Assembly: GCA_018433925.1 (NCBI GenBank)
Contig: JAHDQI010000319.1
Coordinates: 1-39,364, forward strand
Source of the DNA: Phycisphaerae bacterium
GTDB taxonomy: Bacteria > Planctomycetota > Phycisphaerae > Sedimentisphaerales > Anaerohalosphaeraceae
Length of the DNA stretch: 39,364 bases
Direction of reading: 5' to 3'
Positions 12,957-35,765 of this stretch are shown here, piece by piece. A program made the position numbers and the translations under genes. Position 1 is the stretch's first letter; every line of letters starts with the position of its first letter. The notes under the pieces were generated by a model. It was not told where the DNA came from. It did not search any database and saw only the letters and a program-made list of their open reading frames with translations.

Positions 12957-14552
12957 ATGGGTCTGATGAAAAAGGTGATTTGTCACTCTCCTGACGGGAG
13001 TTATCCAGATATGATTCCGACAACAATTTCGTATGAGGATTTTCATCGCCTGATAGCCCGGCGTTCAGGGTCGCTCTTTCGCGCCTCTGCATTTCTGGTC
13101 GCTCATGCACACTCCCATAAAATCCTGACCCGACCCCTCCTCGGTGAACTGCTCTATCAATCCACGCTGCTCGAAGAATTGCTGGATGCTTATGGCGCCA
13201 GGAACAACTCACACTGGGAACGATTTCGCTCGCTGATCGCCGCGATCAAACTGTTTTCCTATGTCAGCTACGAACTTCTTCACATCCAGCACAGCATCCC
13301 GGCCTATCGTCTTTTGCCCGTGGAAGAGGATTTCAGCAAACGCACGGCCGAGACCATTGGATTTACGGAAAACATTCTTTCAGACGCCACCCGCCGCCTG
13401 CTGGACGAGGCCCAAAAGCTCAACCTGCCCGTTCATCATGTCGATCTTCCCGAAGAATATTACAGCGAAACCCTTCCCCCCGGCCGGCTCCCGCATGACC
13501 TGGCCACCCGAAAACTCGAAACCGTCTCACAGACAATTTCTCTTCTGGCAACGGCTTTTCTGAACCTGTCGGCCGAATGCAAGCAGGCCCTTCCGAAAGG
13601 ACAGGTCCAGTCCGATTCCTTCCTCTGCGAATACATCGGACCGGTCAGCGAAGACAAACTGCGATCGCTGGAGCTGCGGTTTCATAACCTCCAGTCCCTC
13701 TACGACACCTATGTATCCACAACCGTAGCCGAGGGCATTGACGAGGAACTGCCCGTGATGCGCGGCCATATCAGTGTGGTGCTTCATCTGCTTCGTACCG
13801 CGCGGGATTTTGCCCACTATATTGAACGCCATGCCGGTCCCTATCAGGCCAAACTGCCCCCCCACCGAAAACGGCTGGTCGAACCGGAAACCCTGCTTCA
13901 GATCATGCTCAATTATTCCATCCACTTTGTCGTTCAATACCTGACCTGTGCCGAGAAACTCTGCCGGGACATGCTCAAACGCTATACCGAGATAGAGACC
14001 ATTGAAGTCCCGGTGCCCCCTTACCGCGGATTTCACGTGCGGCCGTCAACCCTCGTTTCCAAGCTGGTCCTGCATTACGGCAGCGATGTGACGATGGAAC
14101 TGGATGGCGAAGAATACGACGCCAAATCGCCCCTCGAACTGTTTCGGGCCAACGAAAAAATCAACGCGCAAAAACGAAAAGCCCTGGCCGCTGAAATTCT
14201 TCGGCTCAACCTGCTGCCCGAAAGCACGGCCGAACAGGACATACGAAAAGTCATCCGCTCAATCCTCATTGCCCTTTCCGAAAAGGGAAATTTGATTGTT
14301 TACGAGCAACCTCTGCAGATTGAAAATCCTCCCGTCCGTGCCGGGGCCTCCCTGCTCGAACAGGTCAATGATGAAATTGCACGACTCCAGGTCACCGGAA
14401 AAATCGACATCGTCACAGACACCCGCGTCCGCTTTACAGGCGATAAACGAGTCCTCGAAGACATCCAATTACTGGCCGAAAACGGCTACGGAGAAGACCG
14501 AACCGGAAGCAATATCCCCCTTCCGGAAGGCCTTCACTATCTCAGAAAGTAA
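12957..14552 (+). CDS. Large multidomain protein with an embedded HPr-like phosphocarrier domain
   Basis: A protein of up to 531 residues. Residues 1 to about 340 are mostly helical and unrecognised (SYVSYELLHIQHSIPAYRLL, HISVVLHLLRTARDF). From about residue 348 an HPr-like domain follows: VPVPPYRGFHVRPSTLV, with the phosphorylatable His at residue 360. ELDGEEYDAKSPLE places a Ser at 391, exactly 31 residues later, as His15 and Ser46 are in HPr. A helical insertion then separates this from a last strand (GNLIVYEQPLQI), and about 100 further residues follow. In PTS systems HPr carries phosphate from enzyme I, and Ser46 is set by HPr kinase. No PTS enzyme is adjacent. The start is uncertain: the ATG at 12957 has no ribosome binding site, while the ATG at 13011 has GGGAG ten bases upstream and fits the promoter at 12912 better. 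Confidence 0.85.
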   Translation: MGLMKKVICHSPDGSYPDMIPTTISYEDFHRLIARRSGSLFRASAFLVAHAHSHKILTRPLLGELLYQSTLLEELLDAYGARNNSHWERFRSLIAAIKLFSYVSYELLHIQHSIPAYRLLPVEEDFSKRTAETIGFTENILSDATRRLLDEAQKLNLPVHHVDLPEEYYSETLPPGRLPHDLATRKLETVSQTISLLATAFLNLSAECKQALPKGQVQSDSFLCEYIGPVSEDKLRSLELRFHNLQSLYDTYVSTTVAEGIDEELPVMRGHISVVLHLLRTARDFAHYIERHAGPYQAKLPPHRKRLVEPETLLQIMLNYSIHFVVQYLTCAEKLCRDMLKRYTEIETIEVPVPPYRGFHVRPSTLVSKLVLHYGSDVTMELDGEEYDAKSPLELFRANEKINAQKRKALAAEILRLNLLPESTAEQDIRKVIRSILIALSEKGNLIVYEQPLQIENPPVRAGASLLEQVNDEIARLQVTGKIDIVTDTRVRFTGDKRVLEDIQLLAENGYGEDRTGSNIPLPEGLHYLRK

Positions 14553-19497: not shown

Positions 19498-22400
19498 CTA
19501 CGGCACGATCGGTACCGGCAGATTCGGACACGTCTCAGCATCCTGTCCGGCCCGGCAGGTCGCACTCGGCTGCGTGGCGTTGCGATTCGGCGAACGATCC
19601 CGTACCTCAATGTAATACCGATACGGCGCCGATCCGACATAAACCGGGACCCAGAACTCATTGGGCTGCAGATTATTGATATCCACCGTCGGCGGAGGAT
19701 TGATTTGTCCCGTGGCGTACAATTCGAGAAGGTTGTCCTCATTCATCCACGGGCTGGTATTCCCCGCCGCGTCCAGGCAGACAAACCGGTACTCAACACC
19801 GCTGGCATCATCGGCCGCAGCGGCACGCATGTAATGATACCAGGTGTCTTCCAGTTGATGCCGCGGCCAGACCTCCCACTGCGCCGGACTCGGCGTCGGG
19901 ATAATATCATCGATCTCAATCGTATTAGCCGCAAAGACAGCAGAAGAAGTCGTCGGGACCACATCATGGTAACGGCCCTCAAAATCGCGGAAGACCAACT
20001 GGCTGAAGGTCCGGTAGTAATACGTTTCCCCAAGCTGAAGTCCCGTATCCACAAAAATCCACGGCTGTGTCTTATAGGCCTTGAAGATCGAACCCGGATC
20101 ATAGGCCTGCTGAATGATTGGATCGCCGACAGCGTTGCCCAGGGCATCCGTCTTCTGGAAGCAGTAATCAATATGGAAACTGCCGTCCAGCGGAGCTGTC
20201 ACTTCCGGCAGACTGCCCGCTTCCACCTGGACTGCTTCCATCTCAATCTCATCCTCCGAGATGCCGGCCGGGACCCGTTCAAACTCCGACGGATCAGGCG
20301 TCAGCAGGTCATAATTTGTCCCCGGAATAATACCGGCGACCACCGACCGCTCTGTCTCATTGCCGCTGCCGTCCTGTGCAAACACCACAAACTCATACGG
20401 CTCGCCGGGAATCAGCCCGTCGAGAGTCAGATTGCGGTCGGGATCCCAACTGGCAGGATCGGTTACATAGGTATTCGGGTCATTGCTTCTGACGATGACA
20501 AATTGATATTTGATATAGCTGTCCGGCCACCAGTCATCATGGGCCTCAACCGCTGACATGACAATCCTGTCGATGCGATAATTCGGATTCGGCACGATTT
20601 CATTGTTGACCGTTATGGTCGTCGGCAGCAGCGACGGCTCGGTTTCCCATCTCATCGGACTGGGTGTCGGAGGCGTCTCATCGCGCTCCAGCCAGCAATC
20701 TACCAAAAGGGATATGTCCTGAGCATCCACGATTGTATCCAGATTCAGGTCCGCTCCGTCGCACCAGTCCATCTCATTACAGGATTCTCCAAGCCATTCG
20801 GAGGCCAGATGGGCCCAATCCTCAATATCTATCTGACCGCTGAGGTTCAGGGCGTTATCCACCTTGGCACATTTCGTGCGGCGGGTGATAAAATAGTGAT
20901 ATCCGAGATCAACCAGGTCCCGGTCAAGCATACCGGAAACCTGGGTCGTATACCCATCCAGGTCCAGCGCGGCGGCCAGTCCGCTGCCGGTATCCACAGC
21001 CGGACTATCCGGATTCAGATAGTATTTTTCTTCCGGCAGGATCGTGCGTCCGTCTTCTTCAGGCGATTCAAACAGCGGATCAAGAGACAGGATCCCGGCC
21101 TGCTTATCCAGCTCATTGCCCGGACGGACATAAACCGCGTTGCCGGAAGTGAGAATGTTCTGCACATTCGAGTAAGACATTGTCATCGTCGATTTATAAT
21201 ACTCCTCTTCAAAGCCGGAGCCGACTGTTGCCTGGGTTCCCTGCAGGGCCGCGTTGGACCAGAGAATACCGTCTTTGACCTCCACAGTACTGCCGTAGCC
21301 CACAAACAGGCCCCCGCCGGTTCCCGGCTGTCCGCTCACCCAGTTGTCCGCAAACGTACAATGCAGCAGGTCCGCGGCCGTAAACCAGTTAATCGAGGCC
21401 CCGCCGCCGTCACGAGCCGCCCGGTTCTGGATAAACAGGCAGTTGTGAATCGTCGACGTATTCCCCGTAAATCCGGCCATATACAGCCCGCCGCCGGAAA
21501 TCCCCGACAGGTTGTTGCCGAAGACCGAATCCTTCAGATACAGGTCCACTCCGCCGACATACATGCCGCCGCCCTGCCCGACAGCCGTCATCTCGGCCAC
21601 CGGAACCAAAAGCGGATTCGGATCGATCGGATCCGAGGTGCCCGCCACCGGAACGCGAACCAGGTTTTGCTTAAAGAAGGATTTTTCAACCGTCGCTTTC
21701 TTGTCAATCTGCATAAACCCGGCCCCAAGGTAGGCCTCGTTATCAGCCAGGTTGCAGTCCGTAATCGTAGTCGTTGACAGGTTGGCATAAATGCCCCCGC
21801 CGTCAGCCGCCGCGTTATTGACCATCGTGCATTCGTCAAAGATCGCGATGCAGTTGTACTCATAGGCCACACCGCCGCCAAAGCTGACATGGAACGAATG
21901 CGGCAGATCCACGGTCGTGTTATCAGCGATGTTATCCTCGAACCGGCAGCCCTTAAACTCCAGCTCGCAGTCGTGAGCCGCATACACCGCTCCGCCCGCC
22001 GTGGGCATATTAAGCGGACGATCCGGCCACGGAGATTCGCCTCCAGCAAGAGGTCCGCCAACGCCGGTCCGGCCGCCCTGCGTTCGGTTGTTCTCAAAAA
22101 CGCAGTCCCTGAATTTCGCGTTGCTCTTAAATTCGCAATACACAGCCCCGCCGTAACCGCTGTAACGGGCCGCGTCCAGAAGCTGGTCATACGGGTCGCC
22201 CAGCGGATCGATCGGATCACCGCTGTAAGCGGCTAAAAATTCATCCCAGCTTGTAAACAGGTTTTCACCCGTCTCTCGATCCTGCCAGCCAAACCACCGC
22301 GACCACTCATCCATATCATAATCGCCGAAAAATTGGGTGTAATAGCTGATCGCACTGCCATATTTATCTCCGTAAGCATTAAACGCCCAGCCGTCCCAGC

Positions 22401-25400
22401 CCCGGGTTTCCCTCAGATACTGCTCATTGTAGTCATCATAGACCCAGCCGCCGCCGCGACCGCCGTCGTACATAATACCCTGGTCCACCCAGCCGGCCGC
22501 ACCATTACCGCCGGTCGCGCCCCGGGCTTCGTTCCCGGTAAAGACGCAGCGGGTAAACGTCGGGCTGCTGCTCAGGCCGCAATAAACCGCCCCGCCGTAC
22601 GCCGGGCTCGGCCAGCCGCCGTCCCCGCCGGTCGGATGCGATTCTGCCCCCGCAAAGCCGTTTTCACCGTCCTGGGCCCAGGCCAAATTGTTCTCAAATG
22701 TGCAATCAGTAATAGTCGGTGAACTATCAAACAACTGAAGGGCTCCGCCCAGCATCGCCATTTGATGGAATCCATCCGTTCCGGCCGGAACGTCTCCTTC
22801 GTGGAAAAGGAAATCCTGTCGAAACTGGCAATTGCTGAACACGCAGTTTCGGATCTCAATGTCCGCGTTGACCAGATGCATGCGGCTCTGATCAAGCGTA
22901 ACCCCTTCGATCACCGTTCCCTTATCCAGGTTGTGGAGCTGGAATCGGAAATCACGGAAGATCGTGGCCCGAACCGTATCTTCATTACCCGGATTCGACC
23001 CGGAAATAGTCAGCCGCTTGTTCTGCAGAACAATATTATTAACGCCCGATCCAAACTGGCTGCCCGCCACATAAAGGCCCGGCGCCACCCAGATAAAATC
23101 GCCGTCCTGCGCATCCGAAATGGCCTCGCCCAGCGTATCATACCCGCTCGAGGTTCCGACAAACAGCGTCTTCCGGAACCGGGCGTGCGCCCCGATGGAT
23201 TTATTACGCGACATCAGAACCCGGTTCGTGTGCTCCTGCGACTTATCATCAAACGTTCCGCCGGACCACTTGGTCAGCAAGTAGCCGTCTTGGATGGTTG
23301 CCTCCAGTTCCACAATCGCGCCCAGCGGATAGCGGACCAGGGACGGGGCCGGCGTAATCGTTCCCAGTGCCGGATTGACATACCCGTCCTCATCTTTCAC
23401 GCAAAGCTCGAGCAGGTAAAGCTCATCCGGTTCCGGGATCGTATAGTGATAGCCAAGATCCACCCCATTCCCATCCGGAGCCGGATTGGTTTCCGCCGGA
23501 TCGGTCGTATAGCCGTCAGAGAATCCGGCCTGAACGGCCGACACACTGCCGGCGTCAAGGGCCGGGCTGGTCGCCTGGTTCAGGTAATAAGCGCCCAGCG
23601 GACCGGTCTCAAACCTCGGATTACCGGAACGAATTTCGCTATAGCCCGGAGCGGTGGCCGCCGCGTAAATCAACTGATCGGCGCCGTTATACACATCCCC
23701 GCCCGCATTGCCGTAGAACAGGGCATAAGAAACCACAGAGTCTCCCCCCGGCTTCTCATAAATGCCCACGCCCTCGTTGCCGCTGACGATGGAATTGGCC
23801 ATATCGACAACCGAAGCATTGTCCGCATACAGACCGCCGCCCACCCCGATCTCGCTGATATTGTCCGACAGCGTACTGTTATCAATCTCCAGGTGGACAT
23901 ACTGCAAACACGAAACGCCGCCGCCGGTCTGCTCAGAAGAGTTGCCGGTCACCAGCGTATTCCACAGGTTTTGCTGGAAATAGTCCTGGCTGCCCGTAAT
24001 GCACAGGCCGCCGCCCGAAGAAAGAAGACCCGTGGCCTTGTTCTTTTCAATCCGGGTGTCCTTAATCGTAAACGGACCGTCGGTAATATGCAGACCGCCG
24101 CCGTATCCTTCGCCGGTAGCGCTGCGGTGAGCCCCGGCATCGATGCCGGCCGCCGTGTTTTCATAAACCACACAGCCCTGGACCGTCAAATCGGTACGGC
24201 TCGCACGCAGGGCCCCGCCGCTGGCGGCCTTATTCTGAATCATAAAGCAGTCCGTCAGTTCAAAGATCGTATCCTTGGCAAACACCGCGCCGCCCAGACC
24301 GCTGGCCTGGTTGCCGCTGAATTCACACCTGTCAAATGTCAGGTAAATCGTATGAACATACGGCGAAGGAACCTGCATATAGGAGAACACCCCGCCGCCG
24401 TGACCGAGAGACCGGTTGCCATTGAGGGTACAATCGGTCAGCACCAGGTCGCTGAGCGTATGAATCGCACCGCCGCTTGAATGAGACAGGTTCCCGTAAA
24501 AACGGCTGTCCGTAATCAGAATCGGCTGCTTGGCATTGACCTCGACCGTAATCGCACCGCCCAGATCCAACTCGCTGTAGTTGAATAAATCGTCTTCCGT
24601 CTCCGGCTCGACAAAGGTGAAGTTGTTGATAAACTCCGCCGACTCGATGTAAAGATCGGCCCCGGTGCGGCAATAAAGAGCCCCGCCCAGACTGTCCTCA
24701 AAGAGAGGAGTCAAAGAAATCGGCTCAGGTCCCGTCTCATCCAGGCCGGGCACAATCGTCAGCGACACATTCAGGCCGCTGTAAATCGCCCCGCCCAGCG
24801 TCGGAACCGGCGGATCATTATAGGTAAACACCTCGTAGGCCTCGTTGCCGATAAACTGGCAGCCCTGCAGCGTCACATCCGCGTTTTCTTCAATAAACAG
24901 CGCCCCGCCGGCCCGCAGACCGTTGGAAATCAGGATGCCGTTACGGCCGTCGCGCATGCCCTCCTCACCCCATGGATCATTGCCCCAGGGTTCCGGATAA
25001 TCGCTGCCGTCCGCTTCGCTGCCGCCGGCGTGCACATAACCGGGCCGCGCGTAATTGCCTTCAAAGACGCAATTTAGAATCGTCGGGTTGCAGCCGTTAG
25101 CCACATAGATCGCCCCGCCCCGGCCGTCGCCTTCCCCATACCCGGCCTGCGGATTGACGCCGTACTGAACGGCCCATGCGACGCCGGCCGGGTCGTTTCC
25201 GCCCCAGCCGTATCGGACGCTATTGTAAGCCAGGCCCGCGTTGCCGGGAATGCCGCCCCAGCCGCCCGTGGCCCGGTTATTCTTAAACTGGCAATTGATA
25301 ATCGTCGGGTTGCTCTTGCCGACAATGGCAATCGCCCCGCCGTAGCCGTCGCCGGTGCCCTTCCCGGAATGCCCGCCCGACTGGCTGTCAAGATCCTCTT

Positions 25401-28400
25401 CCGTAATAAGATTTTGCGGCCATAAGCCGTTTTCACCGTCGCCGCCGACACCCCCGGACACCGTGCAGTTCTCAAAGACACAGTTGCGGATAACCGGCGA
25501 ACTGCCGTTTTCAAGCAAAATCGCACCGCCGTAGCTGTCTCGGTTCGCGTCTTCACCCGACAGACCACGAGTCGGAGGCAGCGGGTCCGGCGGATTCTCA
25601 AACGGCCACGGCCAGAAACCGGTATCAATCGCATAACTGGCTCCGATTTCGGCCGTAAAGGCGTTGCGAATCGTCACCCCTTCAATGCGGGTCTCGCTGC
25701 TCTGACCGCCGTTGAAGTGGAAGGCCCGCTTTGATAGATACCGGCTGCCCTGGCAATCAATAATCGTCTGCGCAACCGTCTGCGGGTCATTCGGGTCCCA
25801 CGAGGTCACCACCAGGTTCATATCGCCGAAGTTCAGCCCGTCCGGATTCTCGATCAGGTACGGCTGATCCGGACGCGGGGCCAGCACGACAATATCGCCG
25901 TCGCGGGCCGCCAGCAGGGCGTCCTCGATTGTATCAAAGCTTTCCGGCACATACAGCTTCGTCGCCACCGCCAACTCAAACTCCACGGTGACAATTTTAT
26001 CTTCATTCATCGTCACATAATTCGTGAATGCCTTCGACTGGTCGTCATCCGTACCGGTCCATTGTTTCACTCGATACAGATTCGGATCCGTCACCGCGTC
26101 CAGCCGAACTCGAACCCCCTGCGTCAGCGAGATCGGCGGCAGGACCACGGCCGGCCCTTCCTGGCCCGAATCGCTGTCCGAAGACCAGGTGGCCTGAATC
26201 TCGCCCATCGGGTCCACTTTCGCGATATATACGCTCGCGTTCAGCATATAATACTGAACCTCTTCTACATTGTAATGATAGCCCAGGTCAATCGGCTCGG
26301 CATCTTCGATATGATCGGTCCGCGTCGTCACCTCAAACCCAAGAAAAGCCCCCAGGTCAGCGATGTAACTGGTCGAGACCTCACTGTTCGGAATCCCCCG
26401 ATCGATGCAGCCGCTGTCTGCCGACTGCCCGGCGCCCTGATGGCTCAGATAATACGATTTGCCCGCGCTGGCTCCGGCAGCCACAAACAACGGATTCATA
26501 TCAAACACTGAACGATTCACCCCGTCATACCACAAGTCAAAAACAAGCATGCTTTCCAGCGGCATCGCCCGGTACGCCCCATACGCATCGAGATCATCGG
26601 CCGACCCTTCGAGATCCGTATAAGAAAGACCGATGGTGCAATAAGCCGTATCCGTTTTCAGCGGATTGCCAAGCGCCAACTGTTTGCCGAGAGCCGCGTC
26701 GTTGTTCCAGACGATACTGTTTTCAAGAAAGACAAAGGTTTCAATCGCCGGCGATCCGGCACTCCAGGAGGTATCGTTGCCGCAACTGACCGCCCCGCCG
26801 TATCCCGACAGGCCGGTCACTTCATTATCCGCCACCGTACAGTTAATCAGGTACGGTTCGGCGCTGTTCATCGCCGCAAAACCCCCGCCGTCTCGGCCCG
26901 CGCTGTTCTGAGCGATCAGGCAATTAACAAAGTCCTGCGTACCGCCGGGAATCGACGAAAAGGAGCCGACGATATAAACGCCGCCGCCGCTGGACTCCGC
27001 GAGATTCTCCGTAATCCGGCAATCATACATACGGACGGATTCACTGATGCAGTACAGGGCGCCGCCCGAAGCCGTCAGCGTCTCGCTGTTCTCAAGGGCC
27101 GCGGCCGTGTTTTGCGAGAAAATACTTTTTTCTACTGTAAAATCGGATTCGGCGCTGAATATCGCACCGCCGTATTCGGCAATATTATCGGTAAACTCAC
27201 AATCGTTCACATCGGCCACAACGCCGAAAACGCAGACCGCACCGCCCATTTCGGCAAGCCCGCCGGTAAACGTGCTGTTTTCGATATGCACATCCATAAA
27301 AGTAATATAGTCGTCCACCCAGATCGCTCCGCCCGTGGAGCTCGATTGGCCCGAAATGGTCGTCGAATCCGCGATGTTCTCCTCAAACCTGCAGCCGGAC
27401 ACGTTCAACTGTCCCCCGGCCCCGAATTCATTATACCCAATCGCACCGCCGCCTTCGCCGCCCCGGGGATCAATACCAATCTCGGAATAACCCGCCGCGT
27501 TTTCCTGAAATACGCAGTCCGTAAACGTCACGCTGATCGGCGTGTGATCGAAACATACAGCGCCTCCGTCATCCGCGGCGCTGTTCTGGAAAAACAGGCA
27601 GTCCGTAAAGGTGCTGGTAGACGCCCCGTCAATATACAAACCGCCGCCGTCATCATTGTCGGCCCGGTTACTCGAAAACGTCGAATCGGACGCCGTCAGG
27701 ATCGAAAAGTCCTCTATAAAAACGCCGCCGCCGTAGGAATTTGTGTTCCATTGCAGATAAAAGAGCGGATCAGGTCCCTGGATCTCGCCGGATACGCCGC
27801 CTGCGCCCGGCTCGCCGTGCTCACCCGTCCGGTGCCCTGAGCCGCCGCCGCCGCCGATACCGCCCGGCGCATTGCCATTATCCCCGCCGTCGCCGCCGTC
27901 CCCGCCGTCACCGCCGTTGCCGCCGAACGCAAAGACCCCCCAATCCATAAACAGGAGAGCATCCGGATAATTATAATAACCCGTATCGGCCCAGGTATCC
28001 ACACCGCCTGCGTCACCGCCGCGGCCGCCGTTGCCGCCCACACCGTGAGGAGCCGTCTCATCTCCGGCATTGCCGCCGTCGCCTCCGTCACCGCCGGCGC
28101 CGCCCTGGTATTGTTCAATTGTCCGATCCAGTACAACATCTGTCCCGTCTCGAAGAACGATGATCCCATCCCGCTGAAGCGTGGTCCGGTTATTGAAAAA
28201 CGTAGATCCTGTAATCGTCAAGTCCGTCGAGTTGCCCGCGTAAACTGCACCGCCGTAGACAACCTGCCAGCTATCCATCGCTCCGCCGCCGTCGTGGCCG
28301 GCGTTGCCGCCGGCGCCGCCCTGACCGCCCTGGCCGCCCTGGCCGGCAGGTCCGTCCTCGCCGGGTTCTCCGTCAACGCCCCCGTCGGTACCCGTACCGC

Positions 28401-31400
28401 CTGTACCGCCCGTTCCTCCGGTCCCCCCGCTGCCCGCATTGCCCGCGTTGCCGGCGGCCCCGCCATAATTGCCCGTCCCGATGATCACGCCGCACCCCGA
28501 GATCGTGCTGTCACGAATTTCCGGCCGAAGGGTCTGGCCGACTGTGTTGCCCGCAAAATAAATCGCACCACCGAACGCGTTGCCCCCGTTGCCGCCGTGA
28601 CCTCCGTCACCGCCGGCGCCCCCGTCACCGCCGTGGCCGCCCGGACCCCCGTCACCGCCGGGGCCGCCGGGGCCGCCGCCAATACCGTCAATACCGGCGC
28701 CGCCGTTACCCCCGTTACCGCCGTTACCGCCGTTGCCCCCATCGCCCCCGTCACCGCCATTGCCCCCGTTGCCGCCGGAGCCCGCGTTGCCGCCAAGCGC
28801 AAAACACCCGTTAATGGTGCAGCTCCGGATTAGCGGAGCGCTGCCGAGATCGGCATAAATCGCACCCCCGTACCCATGACCGCCGTGACCGCCGTCCTGG
28901 CCTCGCGACCCGGGAAATCCGTGCAGACCATTGGGATCCCCCTCTGCTATGCCGCCCGGCTGACCCGGCGAACCCGCCATGCCGTCGGCTCCGTCCTCAC
29001 CGTCTTCGCCGTCCGTGCCGTCCGGACTTGCCTCACGGCCTTCCTGATTCACAGGCCGCCCGTCTCTGCCGTCACTGCCGTCCTGACCCTGCGCACGGCA
29101 ATTCAAAAACACACAGTTGGCAATCGTCGGACTCGACCCATTGCTGCAGAGAATGGCTCCGCCCAGCGCATCGGCCCCGGTCACTCCCTCTACAATTGAA
29201 GGCAGCGGCTCGATCGCTTCAGCATTCTGAATTGTAAAGCCGTCCAGAAGCGTATCTCGACCCTGCCCCGATTCAAACACAAATGCCCTGTCATCCCCCC
29301 CCCGTCCGTTCAGGGAAGGATCAATAACGGTCGTAGCCACAATAAACGGATCGTTCGGATTGATACTGCGCACGGTAATCGGCCAGGCCGGAAAATGAAT
29401 GTTTTCTTCCGGATAAATACCTGGATACACAATCACCGTATCGCCGGGATTCGATGAATCGATCGCCGCCTGAATGGTCCGGTACGGATAAGGCACTTCC
29501 AGCACACGCTGGCCCGTTCCCGTAAACGCCCCCCCCGGAGAAGTGGACTCGGTCTCATAAAGAATGCTTGACGGATCGCCCGGAGAGGCGGTTTTCTGCC
29601 GCATGTACCCCTCAAAGACATATTCAAATCCCTCCTCCTGGGACACCTCGACCGTGTATTCATTCGAACTCTGCCACCCGCTGTCAAATGGATCCGGGTC
29701 CAGTTCTTCGTACATACGGTAATAATCCACCACAATCAGCGCACGCCGCCCGATCAGCGGATTGCCGGACGGAACAATCACCTGTCCGCTGACAAGATAT
29801 TCCTCGCCCGGCTCCACCAGCACTTCCTGGTACCAGCCCGAGTCCATGAAATACAGAACCGCCGACGCGGAATCCTCGTAATACCCCGCATCCGACGCGA
29901 TATATGCGTTCTGCCCCCATGAATTCCAGCCGCCTGCGTCCGCTTCAAAATCACCGTTGATAATCCGATTGCCGCTGCTTCCAATCAGTTGAATCTGGTC
30001 AAAATACGCAAAACCCAGCCCCGTATAGTCCCCCCCGGGATCCAGCGTCATAAGCGAAATCCGAACCTTATCCACACCGGCCGGGATCGTAATGGTGTCC
30101 TGAATCAAATGCCATGTATCCGTCGGGTCCGTACTCAGAACCTCGCCGATCTCTTCAGAGCCGACCAGCGTCTCTGCGTACCGGCTGGCGGAAGTACAGT
30201 CAAAATAATATTCCACACCGTTTTCATCGTACCCCCGGTGCAGTTTCATGGAAATGTTCTTTTTCCGATAGATTTCAATCTCCCGCGGCAGCGATTCCCA
30301 CAGAGCCGGGTCCGGAGCCGGAGGCAGGTTGTCATAACCCGAAGCCGTGATCGTTGTGACGGCATTGGACCATTCCGTCGCATTCCCATAGGCATCCCGT
30401 GAGCGGCACTGGAAGGTATAGGACGTGCCCTCCTCGGCCTCGGTAATAAGAAACAATTGCGATTCCTGCCACCCGCTGTTGAGACTCGGATCAGTCGGAT
30501 ATTCCAGACAGACAAATTCATATTCAATACCGCCGGAAATATCGCTGGCCAGGGCCGCCTTCATGGCAATATGCTTCAGCCCCGTCGCCTGCGGCTCAAA
30601 AAACCACTCCGCCGGATTCGGGGTCGGGGAAACCGTATCGGCCACTTCCAGCGAGGAAAGGGCATTATACAAATTCAGACGCCCTCCCGACACACAGCTC
30701 GTCGCCAGCCCTTCAATCGGATCAACGCTCGACAGAATAACCTGCTTGACTTCCTCGGCCGTCAGCGAAGGAAGGACCGACCAGACCAGCGCACAGGCGC
30801 CGGCCACATGCGGACAGGCCATCGAGGTCCCCTGGTACGATTGATACCCGTCCGGAATCCCATCGTCATCCAGCTCAAGCGGAACGGTACTGACAATATC
30901 CACACCCGGCGCCGCCAGATCGACTGTCGTCAGACCCCAGTTCGAAAAAGACGGCCGCATATCATCATGATTCGTCGCCATGACCGAGATAATACTGTCC
31001 AGGTCATAACTGGCCGGGAAAGCGGGATTGGTATCGTTGTTGTTGCTTTCATTGCCCGCGGCCGCCACAAACAACAGGCCCGCCCGCTCACTGGCAAGCA
31101 TCGCGTCATAACGCGCCTGACTGAAGGTATATCCCCCGTACGAATTATTCGTAACCCAGGCGCCCATCCGAACGGCATAATTGATCGCCGCGATAATGGC
31201 AGAATCCGGCAGCGGATGATAAATTTCATCCTCCAGCTCAAGAAGAATGCTGGCCTTCAGCGCCATTATCCGAACATTCCAGTTGACCCCGGCAACCCCC
31301 TGATTGTTATTGCCGACTGCCCCGATCGTTCCCGATACATGCGTGCCGTGACCGGCTTCATCCAGGGGGTCGGAATCCCCTTCGCCAAAATCATACCCGT

Positions 31401-32010
31401 AGATATCATCTACATAGCCGTTGCCGTCATCATCGACACCCGGAGTCCCGTTCAACTCCGCCTCATTGACCCACAGATTGGCCGCCAGATCCGGATGCTC
31501 ATAATTTACACCCGTATCAATCACGCCGACAAGTACCTGCCGGCTTCCCGTCGCAAGGTCCCAGGCCTCCACCGCGTCAATATCCGCATCCGCTGTCCCG
31601 CCGGTTTGCCCCGTATTGTGCATCCCCCACAATTGGTTGAAGTACGTATCGTTCGGAACAAGCTGCGGCCACGAGAAATAATCCGGATCCGCATAGCGAA
31701 CACCCGGATGGGTCTGAAATGAAATTCGAGCATTCGATACAGTCGCCCCCTGCGGCAGACGCACCAGCCCCAGGCCCGGTACAAGCTCATACATCGTCTC
31801 AAGGGTTCCGCCCCCGGCCGCCTGAATCACCGCTTGACGCGCAGCCGTCGCCGCCGAACCCGTGCCTTCTTCATGGAAACGGACCAGCAAATAGCCCTCT
31901 CGATAAGAGGGCAAATTTTGTGGATGGCTCGGATTCTGAAAAAAGCCCGCAAGACAAACCGCAGACAGAAGACTGACGATAATGGCTCCAATAAATACTT
32001 TTCGTGCCAT
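19498..32010 (-). CDS. Giant secreted subtilisin-like / beta-helix / dockerin-like protein (about 4170 aa)
   Basis: One uninterrupted frame. The ATG at 32008-32010 has GGAGGG four bases upstream and opens a signal peptide (MARKVFIGAIIVSLLSAVCL), so it is preferred over the in-frame ATG at 32058. Approximate residues: an S8 peptidase domain to about 460 with Asp165 (VIDTG), His221 (GHGTHVSG), Asn320 (AAGNES) and Ser396 (GTSMACPHVAG), a complete triad. Two Fn3-like domains follow at about 470-830, the second holding an inserted carbohydrate-binding-like segment (NGDFEADAGGWNSWG). Then come three right-handed beta-helix modules (about 835-1910, 2010-2855, 2945-3705). Each opens with a '-TI-AI---GD-I-V-PG-Y' line, contains many GGA(I/V)Y rungs and ends in DLGYHY. 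An InlB-B-like segment follows modules 1 and 2. A dockerin-like pair (about 3712-3775, ending SEWL and DCWL) and Fn3-like domains opening TPSPMRW or TPSPAQW complete it. No PEP-CTERM, LPXTG or autotransporter barrel is seen, so the secretion route and anchoring are unknown. A role in polysaccharide binding or degradation, or in surface attachment, is an inference. Confidence 0.9.
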   Translation of the reverse strand: MARKVFIGAIIVSLLSAVCLAGFFQNPSHPQNLPSYREGYLLVRFHEEGTGSAATAARQAVIQAAGGGTLETMYELVPGLGLVRLPQGATVSNARISFQTHPGVRYADPDYFSWPQLVPNDTYFNQLWGMHNTGQTGGTADADIDAVEAWDLATGSRQVLVGVIDTGVNYEHPDLAANLWVNEAELNGTPGVDDDGNGYVDDIYGYDFGEGDSDPLDEAGHGTHVSGTIGAVGNNNQGVAGVNWNVRIMALKASILLELEDEIYHPLPDSAIIAAINYAVRMGAWVTNNSYGGYTFSQARYDAMLASERAGLLFVAAAGNESNNNDTNPAFPASYDLDSIISVMATNHDDMRPSFSNWGLTTVDLAAPGVDIVSTVPLELDDDGIPDGYQSYQGTSMACPHVAGACALVWSVLPSLTAEEVKQVILSSVDPIEGLATSCVSGGRLNLYNALSSLEVADTVSPTPNPAEWFFEPQATGLKHIAMKAALASDISGGIEYEFVCLEYPTDPSLNSGWQESQLFLITEAEEGTSYTFQCRSRDAYGNATEWSNAVTTITASGYDNLPPAPDPALWESLPREIEIYRKKNISMKLHRGYDENGVEYYFDCTSASRYAETLVGSEEIGEVLSTDPTDTWHLIQDTITIPAGVDKVRISLMTLDPGGDYTGLGFAYFDQIQLIGSSGNRIINGDFEADAGGWNSWGQNAYIASDAGYYEDSASAVLYFMDSGWYQEVLVEPGEEYLVSGQVIVPSGNPLIGRRALIVVDYYRMYEELDPDPFDSGWQSSNEYTVEVSQEEGFEYVFEGYMRQKTASPGDPSSILYETESTSPGGAFTGTGQRVLEVPYPYRTIQAAIDSSNPGDTVIVYPGIYPEENIHFPAWPITVRSINPNDPFIVATTVIDPSLNGRGGDDRAFVFESGQGRDTLLDGFTIQNAEAIEPLPSIVEGVTGADALGGAILCSNGSSPTIANCVFLNCRAQGQDGSDGRDGRPVNQEGREASPDGTDGEDGEDGADGMAGSPGQPGGIAEGDPNGLHGFPGSRGQDGGHGGHGYGGAIYADLGSAPLIRSCTINGCFALGGNAGSGGNGGNGGDGGDGGNGGNGGNGGNGGAGIDGIGGGPGGPGGDGGPGGHGGDGGAGGDGGHGGNGGNAFGGAIYFAGNTVGQTLRPEIRDSTISGCGVIIGTGNYGGAAGNAGNAGSGGTGGTGGTGGTGTDGGVDGEPGEDGPAGQGGQGGQGGAGGNAGHDGGGAMDSWQVVYGGAVYAGNSTDLTITGSTFFNNRTTLQRDGIIVLRDGTDVVLDRTIEQYQGGAGGDGGDGGNAGDETAPHGVGGNGGRGGDAGGVDTWADTGYYNYPDALLFMDWGVFAFGGNGGDGGDGGDGGDNGNAPGGIGGGGGSGHRTGEHGEPGAGGVSGEIQGPDPLFYLQWNTNSYGGGVFIEDFSILTASDSTFSSNRADNDDGGGLYIDGASTSTFTDCLFFQNSAADDGGAVCFDHTPISVTFTDCVFQENAAGYSEIGIDPRGGEGGGAIGYNEFGAGGQLNVSGCRFEENIADSTTISGQSSSTGGAIWVDDYITFMDVHIENSTFTGGLAEMGGAVCVFGVVADVNDCEFTDNIAEYGGAIFSAESDFTVEKSIFSQNTAAALENSETLTASGGALYCISESVRMYDCRITENLAESSGGGVYIVGSFSSIPGGTQDFVNCLIAQNSAGRDGGGFAAMNSAEPYLINCTVADNEVTGLSGYGGAVSCGNDTSWSAGSPAIETFVFLENSIVWNNDAALGKQLALGNPLKTDTAYCTIGLSYTDLEGSADDLDAYGAYRAMPLESMLVFDLWYDGVNRSVFDMNPLFVAAGASAGKSYYLSHQGAGQSADSGCIDRGIPNSEVSTSYIADLGAFLGFEVTTRTDHIEDAEPIDLGYHYNVEEVQYYMLNASVYIAKVDPMGEIQATWSSDSDSGQEGPAVVLPPISLTQGVRVRLDAVTDPNLYRVKQWTGTDDDQSKAFTNYVTMNEDKIVTVEFELAVATKLYVPESFDTIEDALLAARDGDIVVLAPRPDQPYLIENPDGLNFGDMNLVVTSWDPNDPQTVAQTIIDCQGSRYLSKRAFHFNGGQSSETRIEGVTIRNAFTAEIGASYAIDTGFWPWPFENPPDPLPPTRGLSGEDANRDSYGGAILLENGSSPVIRNCVFENCTVSGGVGGDGENGLWPQNLITEEDLDSQSGGHSGKGTGDGYGGAIAIVGKSNPTIINCQFKNNRATGGWGGIPGNAGLAYNSVRYGWGGNDPAGVAWAVQYGVNPQAGYGEGDGRGGAIYVANGCNPTILNCVFEGNYARPGYVHAGGSEADGSDYPEPWGNDPWGEEGMRDGRNGILISNGLRAGGALFIEENADVTLQGCQFIGNEAYEVFTYNDPPVPTLGGAIYSGLNVSLTIVPGLDETGPEPISLTPLFEDSLGGALYCRTGADLYIESAEFINNFTFVEPETEDDLFNYSELDLGGAITVEVNAKQPILITDSRFYGNLSHSSGGAIHTLSDLVLTDCTLNGNRSLGHGGGVFSYMQVPSPYVHTIYLTFDRCEFSGNQASGLGGAVFAKDTIFELTDCFMIQNKAASGGALRASRTDLTVQGCVVYENTAAGIDAGAHRSATGEGYGGGLHITDGPFTIKDTRIEKNKATGLLSSGGGLCITGSQDYFQQNLWNTLVTGNSSEQTGGGVSCLQYVHLEIDNSTLSDNISEIGVGGGLYADNASVVDMANSIVSGNEGVGIYEKPGGDSVVSYALFYGNAGGDVYNGADQLIYAAATAPGYSEIRSGNPRFETGPLGAYYLNQATSPALDAGSVSAVQAGFSDGYTTDPAETNPAPDGNGVDLGYHYTIPEPDELYLLELCVKDEDGYVNPALGTITPAPSLVRYPLGAIVELEATIQDGYLLTKWSGGTFDDKSQEHTNRVLMSRNKSIGAHARFRKTLFVGTSSGYDTLGEAISDAQDGDFIWVAPGLYVAGSQFGSGVNNIVLQNKRLTISGSNPGNEDTVRATIFRDFRFQLHNLDKGTVIEGVTLDQSRMHLVNADIEIRNCVFSNCQFRQDFLFHEGDVPAGTDGFHQMAMLGGALQLFDSSPTITDCTFENNLAWAQDGENGFAGAESHPTGGDGGWPSPAYGGAVYCGLSSSPTFTRCVFTGNEARGATGGNGAAGWVDQGIMYDGGRGGGWVYDDYNEQYLRETRGWDGWAFNAYGDKYGSAISYYTQFFGDYDMDEWSRWFGWQDRETGENLFTSWDEFLAAYSGDPIDPLGDPYDQLLDAARYSGYGGAVYCEFKSNAKFRDCVFENNRTQGGRTGVGGPLAGGESPWPDRPLNMPTAGGAVYAAHDCELEFKGCRFEDNIADNTTVDLPHSFHVSFGGGVAYEYNCIAIFDECTMVNNAAADGGGIYANLSTTTITDCNLADNEAYLGAGFMQIDKKATVEKSFFKQNLVRVPVAGTSDPIDPNPLLVPVAEMTAVGQGGGMYVGGVDLYLKDSVFGNNLSGISGGGLYMAGFTGNTSTIHNCLFIQNRAARDGGGASINWFTAADLLHCTFADNWVSGQPGTGGGLFVGYGSTVEVKDGILWSNAALQGTQATVGSGFEEEYYKSTMTMSYSNVQNILTSGNAVYVRPGNELDKQAGILSLDPLFESPEEDGRTILPEEKYYLNPDSPAVDTGSGLAAALDLDGYTTQVSGMLDRDLVDLGYHYFITRRTKCAKVDNALNLSGQIDIEDWAHLASEWLGESCNEMDWCDGADLNLDTIVDAQDISLLVDCWLERDETPPTPSPMRWETEPSLLPTTITVNNEIVPNPNYRIDRIVMSAVEAHDDWWPDSYIKYQFVIVRSNDPNTYVTDPASWDPDRNLTLDGLIPGEPYEFVVFAQDGSGNETERSVVAGIIPGTNYDLLTPDPSEFERVPAGISEDEIEMEAVQVEAGSLPEVTAPLDGSFHIDYCFQKTDALGNAVGDPIIQQAYDPGSIFKAYKTQPWIFVDTGLQLGETYYYRTFSQLVFRDFEGRYHDVVPTTSSAVFAANTIEIDDIIPTPSPAQWEVWPRHQLEDTWYHYMRAAAADDASGVEYRFVCLDAAGNTSPWMNEDNLLELYATGQINPPPTVDINNLQPNEFWVPVYVGSAPYRYYIEVRDRSPNRNATQPSATCRAGQDAETCPNLPVPIVP
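27770..29100 (-). repeat. Glycine-rich (GGN / G-x-x) repeat inserts within beta-helix module 1
   Basis: Five stretches of near-perfect Gly-Gly-X repeats lie inside the giant gene, for example GGNGGNGGDGGDGGNGGNGG and GTGGTGGTGGTG. The first is more collagen-like (G-x-x with Asp, Pro, Glu). Each stretch falls between a '-I-NC-F' strand and the following YGGA(I/V)Y rung, so they read as loops extruded from the helix. At DNA level they are arrays of ccg-ccg-tca/ttg-type triplets on the plus strand. Confidence 0.85.
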
Positions 32011-32485
32011 GGCACCCTCCGTATAGGTCCTGTATGTTTCCATTTTGCCTGTTTCCAATCGTAAGTAGTTTATACAAAGCAGTTAAGACGGGCAATATAG
32101 ACACTGCCCGTTTGCAAACGATACACGTAAGGTATCGGATAACAGAAAAGGCGAGTTTATATTACCTTACCAAATTACCTATTCTCCGTCAAGTTGATTT
32201 GAAAATACACAGCATAAACAAACTGGTAAAAATCGATGTTATCAGACGTACTAAAACCCCCAGAATGTATTTCGACTTATTATGTCTTTAATGAGAGCCG
32301 ATAGACCTATAAAAACACAGAAAACAGTATTTATATATGATCTTTGCACCCATTATAGTAAATTGGATTGACCAAGTGTTACATTTTTTTCTTATTTTTA
32401 GTGATTTTTTTAAATTTCGCCTTAAAATCTTTATTTTATGAATTATCAATGTCCTGTATTGAAAGGAAACTTTTCGGATACACCT
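32011..32485. promoter_or_regulatory. AT-rich divergent intergenic region: structured leader of the giant gene and aroA upstream region
   Basis: There is no convincing gene in these 475 bases. On the minus strand a TATAAT lies at 32352-32357 with a weak -35; transcription from it would give a leader of about 335 bases. A nearer TTGACG (32185-32190) with a poor -10 is possible. The leader holds ACGGGCA / TGCCCGT (32088-32094 with 32105-32111), CGATAC / GTATCG (32119-32124 with 32132-32137) and the palindrome CGTTTGCAAACG (32109-32120). GTAAGGTA / TACCTTAC (32127-32134 with 32163-32170) competes with the second stem. On the plus strand TTGACC (32368-32373), followed after 18 bases by TTATTT, may serve aroA. 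No known riboswitch was recognised. Confidence 0.5.
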
Positions 32486-33860: not shown

Positions 33861-35765
33861 ATGTCCGGAACAAAAGATTTTTGTGCGCAATGGCAGCAGT
33901 TTGAGCTGCCGTCCCCATGTAGGCATCTGCTCAGCCATTGCCGTTCATTGGTATTCCCGGCCAATCGAGAAGAGATTCTTAAAATGGCAATGGGCGGAAA
34001 AAAAACAGGAACCTTCGAGGTCTCTTATGACATCCCCGGAAGAGGAACCGTGGTCGAGGCCACGGTCACCGCATGCAAAAACGGCCTGTCCGTCAATTAT
34101 ACAGAACCCTATATGCGGCGACGTGACCCGGACTGCATGTATATCGCTGACGACCGCGAAACAGACAAATCCCGTTTCCAGGAGCATTTCCCGGATGCCT
34201 TCGACTCGATTCGACAGCAGACCTTCGATTGGCTGGTCCGGCAGGAACTCGTTGTCACGCTCTTTACCATTGGCTCCTTCGATGAAAACAGCGGTCAGGG
34301 GGCCATGCTGATCGCCCCCAAAAACGCCGGGTTTTTTGTCGGCGGACTGGCGGACTTGCAGGGCATGATCCCGCCGGATAACGTCCCCGAAAATTTCAGG
34401 GTCCGCAGTGTTATTTACCTGGCCCCGACCTTCCGGCATACGCACTGTAACGGCAAGCAGGTGGTGGTTCACAATCGCCTCCCGGACCTCCATGAAATCT
34501 TTTCCTACAACCTCTATCCCGGCCCCAGCGCAAAAAAAGGAATCTACGGCGTACTCCTGGCCATTGGCGAAGATGAGGACTGGCCCACCCTCCACGGATC
34601 CACGGTTCAGGTCGTCACGCCTTATGACAACATTACAACCATCATGCACGAAGGCGCCAGCGGAGGCGGCAAAAGCGAAATGCTCGAGTACGTACACCGC
34701 GAAGAAGACGGCCGCCTCCTCCTCGGCACCAACACCCTGACCGGTGAGCAGCGATTCGTCGTACTCAACCAGGCCTGCCAGTTAAATCCCGTCACGGATG
34801 ATATGGCTATGTGTGTGCCCAACATGGAGAACGCAGACGGCTATCTTCTCGCAAGAGACGCCGAACAGGCCTGGTTTGTTCGCCTGGATCATATCCGAAA
34901 ATACGGAACTGACCCGCACCTTGAAAGCATCCTCATGCATCCCGGCGAACCGCTGATCTTCATAAACCTTGACGCCGTCCCCGGCTCCACCTGCCTCATC
35001 TGGGATCACACTGAAGATGCGCCGGCAAAGCCCTGTCCGAATCCGCGCGTAATCCTTCCCAGGCGGCTGGTCCCCAACGCCGTCCACGAAACCGTGGAAG
35101 TCATGATCCGCAGTTTCGGCATCCGGACGCCCCCCTGCACCCGGGAAAAACCCTCCTATGGAATCGCCGGTTATCTGCATATTCTGCCGGCCGCGCTGGC
35201 CTGGCTGTGGCGGCTGGTCGCGCCGAGAGGACATGCCAATCCAAGCATCACCGATACCGAGGGAATGACCAGTGAGGGGGTCGGTTCCTACTGGCCCTTC
35301 GCTACCGGACGCCTGGTCGATCATGCCAATCTGCTCCTCCGGCAGATCCGTGCCACACCCAAGGTACGATATGCCCTCATGCCCAATCAGCATGTAGGGG
35401 CCTGGAAAGTCGGCTTCATGCCCCAGTGGATCAGCCGCGAGTACCTCGGAAGAAGGGGCCTGGCCCGTTTCTATCCCCATCAGATCGCCCCGGCACGCTG
35501 TCCCCTTCTCGGCTACGCCTTTAACTCCATGCAGGTCGAAGGCACCCCGATCCCTCTCTTTTTCCTTCATCCGGAGAACCAGCCCGAAATCGGCATCGAG
35601 GGATATGACGCCGGCGCCGAAATCCTCCGTGCATTTTTTATCAAAGAACTCCAAAAATTCCGACAGCCCGATCTCGATCCACTCGGAAAGGAAATTATCG
35701 CCTGCGGCCTCGACGGCGGCACCGCGCAGGATTACGAAAACCTTTTATACGATGTCTTTTCCTGA
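33861..35765 (+). CDS. DUF4914-like protein with HPr-kinase / PEPCK-like P-loop
   Basis: A 634-residue cytoplasmic protein with AGGA before the ATG. By length and sequence style (ACKNGLSVNYTEPYMRRRDP) it appears to belong to DUF4914, which has no assigned function. A P-loop, GASGGGKSE at residues 265-273 with Lys271, stands in mid-protein. It is close to the Walker A of HPr kinase/phosphorylase (GESGIGKSE-like) and to that of PEP carboxykinase, which share a fold. Further on, PNPRVILPRRLVP, GHANPSITDTEGMTSEGVGS and YWPFATGRL look like conserved active-site segments of a nucleotide-dependent enzyme. No membrane helix or signal peptide is seen. The gene lies alone between aroA and a terminator. 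A kinase or carboxykinase-like activity is an inference from the P-loop only. Confidence 0.75.
   Translation: MSGTKDFCAQWQQFELPSPCRHLLSHCRSLVFPANREEILKMAMGGKKTGTFEVSYDIPGRGTVVEATVTACKNGLSVNYTEPYMRRRDPDCMYIADDRETDKSRFQEHFPDAFDSIRQQTFDWLVRQELVVTLFTIGSFDENSGQGAMLIAPKNAGFFVGGLADLQGMIPPDNVPENFRVRSVIYLAPTFRHTHCNGKQVVVHNRLPDLHEIFSYNLYPGPSAKKGIYGVLLAIGEDEDWPTLHGSTVQVVTPYDNITTIMHEGASGGGKSEMLEYVHREEDGRLLLGTNTLTGEQRFVVLNQACQLNPVTDDMAMCVPNMENADGYLLARDAEQAWFVRLDHIRKYGTDPHLESILMHPGEPLIFINLDAVPGSTCLIWDHTEDAPAKPCPNPRVILPRRLVPNAVHETVEVMIRSFGIRTPPCTREKPSYGIAGYLHILPAALAWLWRLVAPRGHANPSITDTEGMTSEGVGSYWPFATGRLVDHANLLLRQIRATPKVRYALMPNQHVGAWKVGFMPQWISREYLGRRGLARFYPHQIAPARCPLLGYAFNSMQVEGTPIPLFFLHPENQPEIGIEGYDAGAEILRAFFIKELQKFRQPDLDPLGKEIIACGLDGGTAQDYENLLYDVFS

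Follow-up and report, generated by a model that had tools for sequence, protein, structure and literature searches.

An HPr domain, here split by an insert, behind a large helical domain in a conserved Planctomycetota protein family

The open reading frame at positions 12957..14552 on the plus strand encodes a protein of 531 amino acids that contains a genuine HPr-like domain, a result on which the predicted fold, the homologues lacking its insert and the profile comparison agree. On the sequence and model evidence, the protein represents a conserved and previously unnamed Planctomycetota family, in which an HPr domain stands behind a large helical domain. The reading that we prefer, with a probability of about one half, is that of a regulatory protein whose helical domain would be controlled by enzyme I (EI)-dependent phosphorylation of His360.

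The reading frame was found in the ORF listing and by translation just as the initial annotation of the window (the whole stretch of 39,364 nucleotides that was analysed) had described it, and translation reproduces GFHVRPST with His360 and DAKSPLE with Ser391 at a spacing of 31 residues. Most homologues begin at or near M19, so that the probable true start is at 13011 (+), giving 513 amino acids. The all-helical N-terminal domain comprises residues 19-345 (13011..13991, +), as delimited by the AF2 model and by conservation, and corresponds to no Pfam family. The HPr core follows in two parts on the same strand. Part 1, residues 346-407 (13992..14177), contains beta1, helix A, beta2, beta3 and helix B according to VIA-align, secondary structure and the Pfam and NCBIfam matches, and it includes the codons of His360 (14034..14036), the equivalent of HPr His15, and of Ser391 (14127..14129) at the position of HPr Ser46. 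Part 2, residues 490-515 (14424..14501), contains beta4 and helix C according to VIA-align and the aligned C-termini of the insert-free relatives. Alignment with these relatives places an insert of about 82 residues (408-489; 14178..14423, +) between the two parts, at the helix B / beta4 boundary, and a conserved C-terminal tail with the family pattern GNNIPLP..L.YLR (14502..14549, +) is seen in the alignments. Elsewhere in the window, a giant ORF of 4186 amino acids (19498-32058, minus strand) combines a subtilase domain with surface-protein repeats, among them several beta-helix stretches, and a 634-amino-acid protein (33861-35765, plus strand) consists nearly entirely of DUF4914.

The AF2 model of the protein has a pLDDT of 83.9. 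Its residues 346-515 superpose by VIA-align on the solved HPr structure 3lfg_B with a Z of 10.9 and an rmsd of 1.7 Å (82/89 residues), and the predicted structure has the full beta-alpha-beta-beta-alpha-beta-alpha order of HPr. The structure prediction thus recovered an HPr fold and not an unrelated one, and the HPr-like domain proposed near the C-terminus of a large helical protein is borne out by fold, homologues and profiles. Foldseek by itself placed HPr low for this model. The sequence matches are below the curated cut-offs, with TIGR01003 at E 1.3e-6 (28.3 bits, cut-off 47.9) and PF00381 at E 8e-4 (19.8 bits by hmmscan, cut-off 23); a PF00381 search of the genome, in which the protein was scored together with its neighbours, gave 23.4 bits. 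In the window protein these models match the first half of HPr alone, since the insert splits the domain. The resemblance to HPr nevertheless exceeds chance, and the motif G.H.RP[AST] arose in 0.07% of shuffled versions of the protein. Residues 408-489 are present in the close subfamily and missing from the insert-free relatives, among which 9 of the 10 scanned planctomycete sequences pass the PF00381 (PTS-HPr) cut-off (L153 lies below it). The HPr region of the insert-free sequences aligns by hhalign with free HPr of the window's order at 96.6% (E 5e-10, 80 columns). The HPr domain therefore stands, but instead of forming one compact segment of some 85 residues it is made up of 346-407 and 490-515, its beta4 and helix C being supplied by the conserved C-terminus of the protein. 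The domain is like those described by PF00381 and TIGR01003 in its fold, the order of its elements and its His-x-Arg-Pro active site. It differs from a standalone HPr in standing at the C-terminal end of a chain of about 440-530 amino acids, and in the close subfamily also in the interruption by about 82 residues and in a Ser46 position that is not kept.

Conservation at the two sites was followed in 30 close-subfamily and 42 insert-free sequences, collected from whole genomes by protein and profile searches that did not use the motif as seed. A set of 80 loci had been retrieved partly with the motif RGFHVRPST, and they were excluded from the motif counts since their conservation of that motif is for this reason to be disregarded. 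His360, Arg362 and Pro363 are invariant (72/72 homologues), as would be expected for the active-site histidine of an HPr domain. Position 391 behaves differently from that invariant histidine. Serine is found there in 40 of the 42 insert-free relatives and in 19 of the 30 close-subfamily sequences, where the residue may be S, A, T, L, M, Y or F; all five sister genomes have Ala or Leu, and a proline follows directly in 29/30 of the close subfamily. Free HPrs of the window's order also keep Ser46, so a serine at this position is by itself no indicator of a kinase. Searches for HPr kinase left all 59 relatives without a match above the cut-off and, TIGR00679 included, matched nothing in the own genome; they likewise missed the B. 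subtilis control, and the absence of the kinase from these genomes is therefore probable, not certain. Among 392 genomes of the phylum one strong match, a true HPrK, was obtained (G364, 213 bits), the rest being short stretches of 20-38 bits. A dual-site regulation of the Firmicutes type, with a kinase acting on Ser391 as HPrK does on Ser46, would be in line with the 31-residue spacing and with the serine of the insert-free relatives, but the variability of the site in the close subfamily, the adjacent proline and the probable lack of a kinase make it highly improbable, and the proposal of Ser391 as a second HPr phosphosite is not supported.

The own genome offers possible partners for phosphotransfer to His360. 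At a separate locus, a free HPr and the N-terminal domain of EI lie on one contig with EIIA alongside, and the 441 contigs gave no match to PF02378, the one EIIC family searched; together this suggests a PTS that is probably regulatory and not sugar-transporting. A published analysis assigned planctomycete EI to group R, whose organisms, some Proteobacteria aside, it states to be without PTS transporters (PMC2405797). The set of EI, HPr and EIIA, with no EIIC matched by PF02378, resembles that of the regulatory PTS-Ntr (EI, NPr, EIIA), from which the own genome differs by its extra HPr-bearing protein, possibly a branch or an output. Co-occurrence with EI was discarded as functional evidence, since 369/392 genomes of the phylum have EI and its presence beside the HPr-fusion family says little. 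Among the scanned genes of the window there are no PTS genes, in agreement with the initial annotation. Its broader proposal of a regulatory phosphoprotein using HPr chemistry is upheld in part: the genuine HPr domain and the invariant histidine are borne out, no EIIC was matched by PF02378 and a regulatory role would fit, but the serine site is not supported.

In the mechanism that we favour, the C-terminal HPr module would exchange phosphate on His360 with EI (or EIIA), and the phosphorylation state of His360 would alter the binding or the action of the attached helical domain. That His360 takes phosphate from EI is the most likely interpretation of an invariant site in a complete predicted fold, and the helical domain would, by inference, be the output of the HPr module. 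Helix B belongs to the face with which HPr usually binds its partners. The insert beside it might block EI, which counts against an EI-dependent mechanism, as does the loss of Gly358 (HPr Gly13), retained in the close set only, from the insert-free relatives. The same two features, together with the lack of PTS genes among the scanned window genes, could also be taken to mean that the HPr module is a docking or structural element only and that His360 is not phosphorylated. Such a role is difficult to reconcile with the absolute conservation of His360, Arg362 and Pro363 (72/72), which a phosphotransfer site requires, and we regard it as distinctly unlikely.

The helical domain (residues 19-345), folded alone by AF2 from 62 sequences, gave a pLDDT of 91.8 and a pTM of 0.91. 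Near-invariant in it are N84, E232, H243, Q246, Y249, D250, R269, H277, H287, E290, R291 and H292. No Pfam family matches the domain of the window protein itself, and other members of the alignment give only scattered weak matches. No fold stands out in the comparison with the PDB, the PDB profile search returned a designed bundle only and no Rsd structure, and the viral structure library gave no match. The CHAD domain (PF05235) recurs in the fold lists and has helical bundles and conserved histidines in common with this domain. It was rejected as an identification, however, as profile-profile comparison with the CHAD proteins of six relatives gave an hhalign probability of 0.1%, and unrelated helical bundles reach a Z comparable to its 8.5.

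The conserved histidines raise the question of a second phosphoryl acceptor. His360 could pass phosphate to H243, H277, H287 or H292, in which case the helical domain would be a new acceptor or carrier domain of a multi-phosphoryl-transfer protein. Fusions of HPr with IIA or EI domains are already known, and in such proteins, e.g. FPr, HPr is likewise one module of a larger protein (PMC2405797). They differ from the window protein in that its partner domain resembles no PTS domain in profile searches of Pfam and PDB, which recognised no second PTS domain in the chain, and in that the scanned window genes hold no PTS genes. A ligand or metal site would explain the conserved His, Arg and Asp residues equally well, and although the helical-domain histidines are invariant or nearly so, we consider this transfer unlikely.

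The profile search across Planctomycetota, which the initial annotation had suggested, indicated a conserved family, with matches in 103 of the 392 genomes of the phylum, the weakest being short HPr-like matches only. Two genomes (G013 and G022) have matches at two separate places each, with identities of about 57-58% and 48% to the window protein; these are probable paralogues, and the match in another (L004 in G002) carries one in-frame TGA. Three loci labelled Competibacteraceae (L108, L114 and L134) form one clade nested in the Phycisphaerae-type tree. Their flanks are common to each other and not to Phycisphaerae, with genes that by eye resemble those for SerRS, RarA-like, LolA-like and FtsK-like proteins. 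A horizontal transfer of the family into these genomes is likely; among 299 sampled genomes of the phylum of Competibacteraceae, the one full-length match was the starting genome itself.

The gene neighbourhoods bear on the nature of a possible output. In 40 loci of the insert-free relatives (L145-L184) the gene lies within a conserved block of DnaA, NifS, ParA, PyrF, HemW, ParB and a sigma gene, which perhaps lies near the replication origin; the names of the block genes were assigned by eye, except for one adjoining sigma gene that was scanned and found to be RpoS/RpoD-like. Of the 39 loci having upstream sequence, 29 have a sigma gene directly next to the family gene in divergent orientation. 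The recurrent neighbours of the close subfamily (LysR, HAD, lipoprotein, ExoIII, flavodoxin, FabZ-like and DUF4340/ABC genes, named by eye except for the scanned window genes) have no PTS link.

Transcription control via a sigma factor is accordingly one candidate output, and would be a special case of the EI-dependent mechanism, in which the binding of an RpoS-like sigma factor to the helical domain would be gated by the HPr module. In E. coli, dephospho-HPr is a binding partner of Rsd, an anti-sigma factor, and inhibits its complex with sigma70 (PMC8509676; PDB 4xwj), and there too HPr acts on a helical protein; it is a precedent for this type of action only and not evidence for the window protein, in which the two parts are fused covalently, the sigma link is putative and the PDB profile search detected no sequence similarity to Rsd structures. 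The adjacency to a sigma gene is weak evidence of a functional link, since the whole block is conserved, and neither the scanned window genes nor the recurrent neighbours of the close relatives include a recognised sigma factor. Sigma regulation by this protein appears unlikely.

The HPr domain itself is already known, while its fusion to the helical domain, and its insert, were not found in a literature search limited to open-access papers. It is tempting to speculate that these helical regulators, carrying an HPr of their own, are a new type of PTS output protein in Planctomycetota, leading from the phosphorelay to transcription through a neighbouring RpoS-like sigma factor, but we hold this to be unlikely as well. 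EI is near-universal in the phylum (369/392), and published work reports no PTS transporters in the Planctomycetota it examined (PMC2405797); for the output of such a PTS, a conserved HPr-bearing protein whose helical domain matches no recognised family is a direct candidate.
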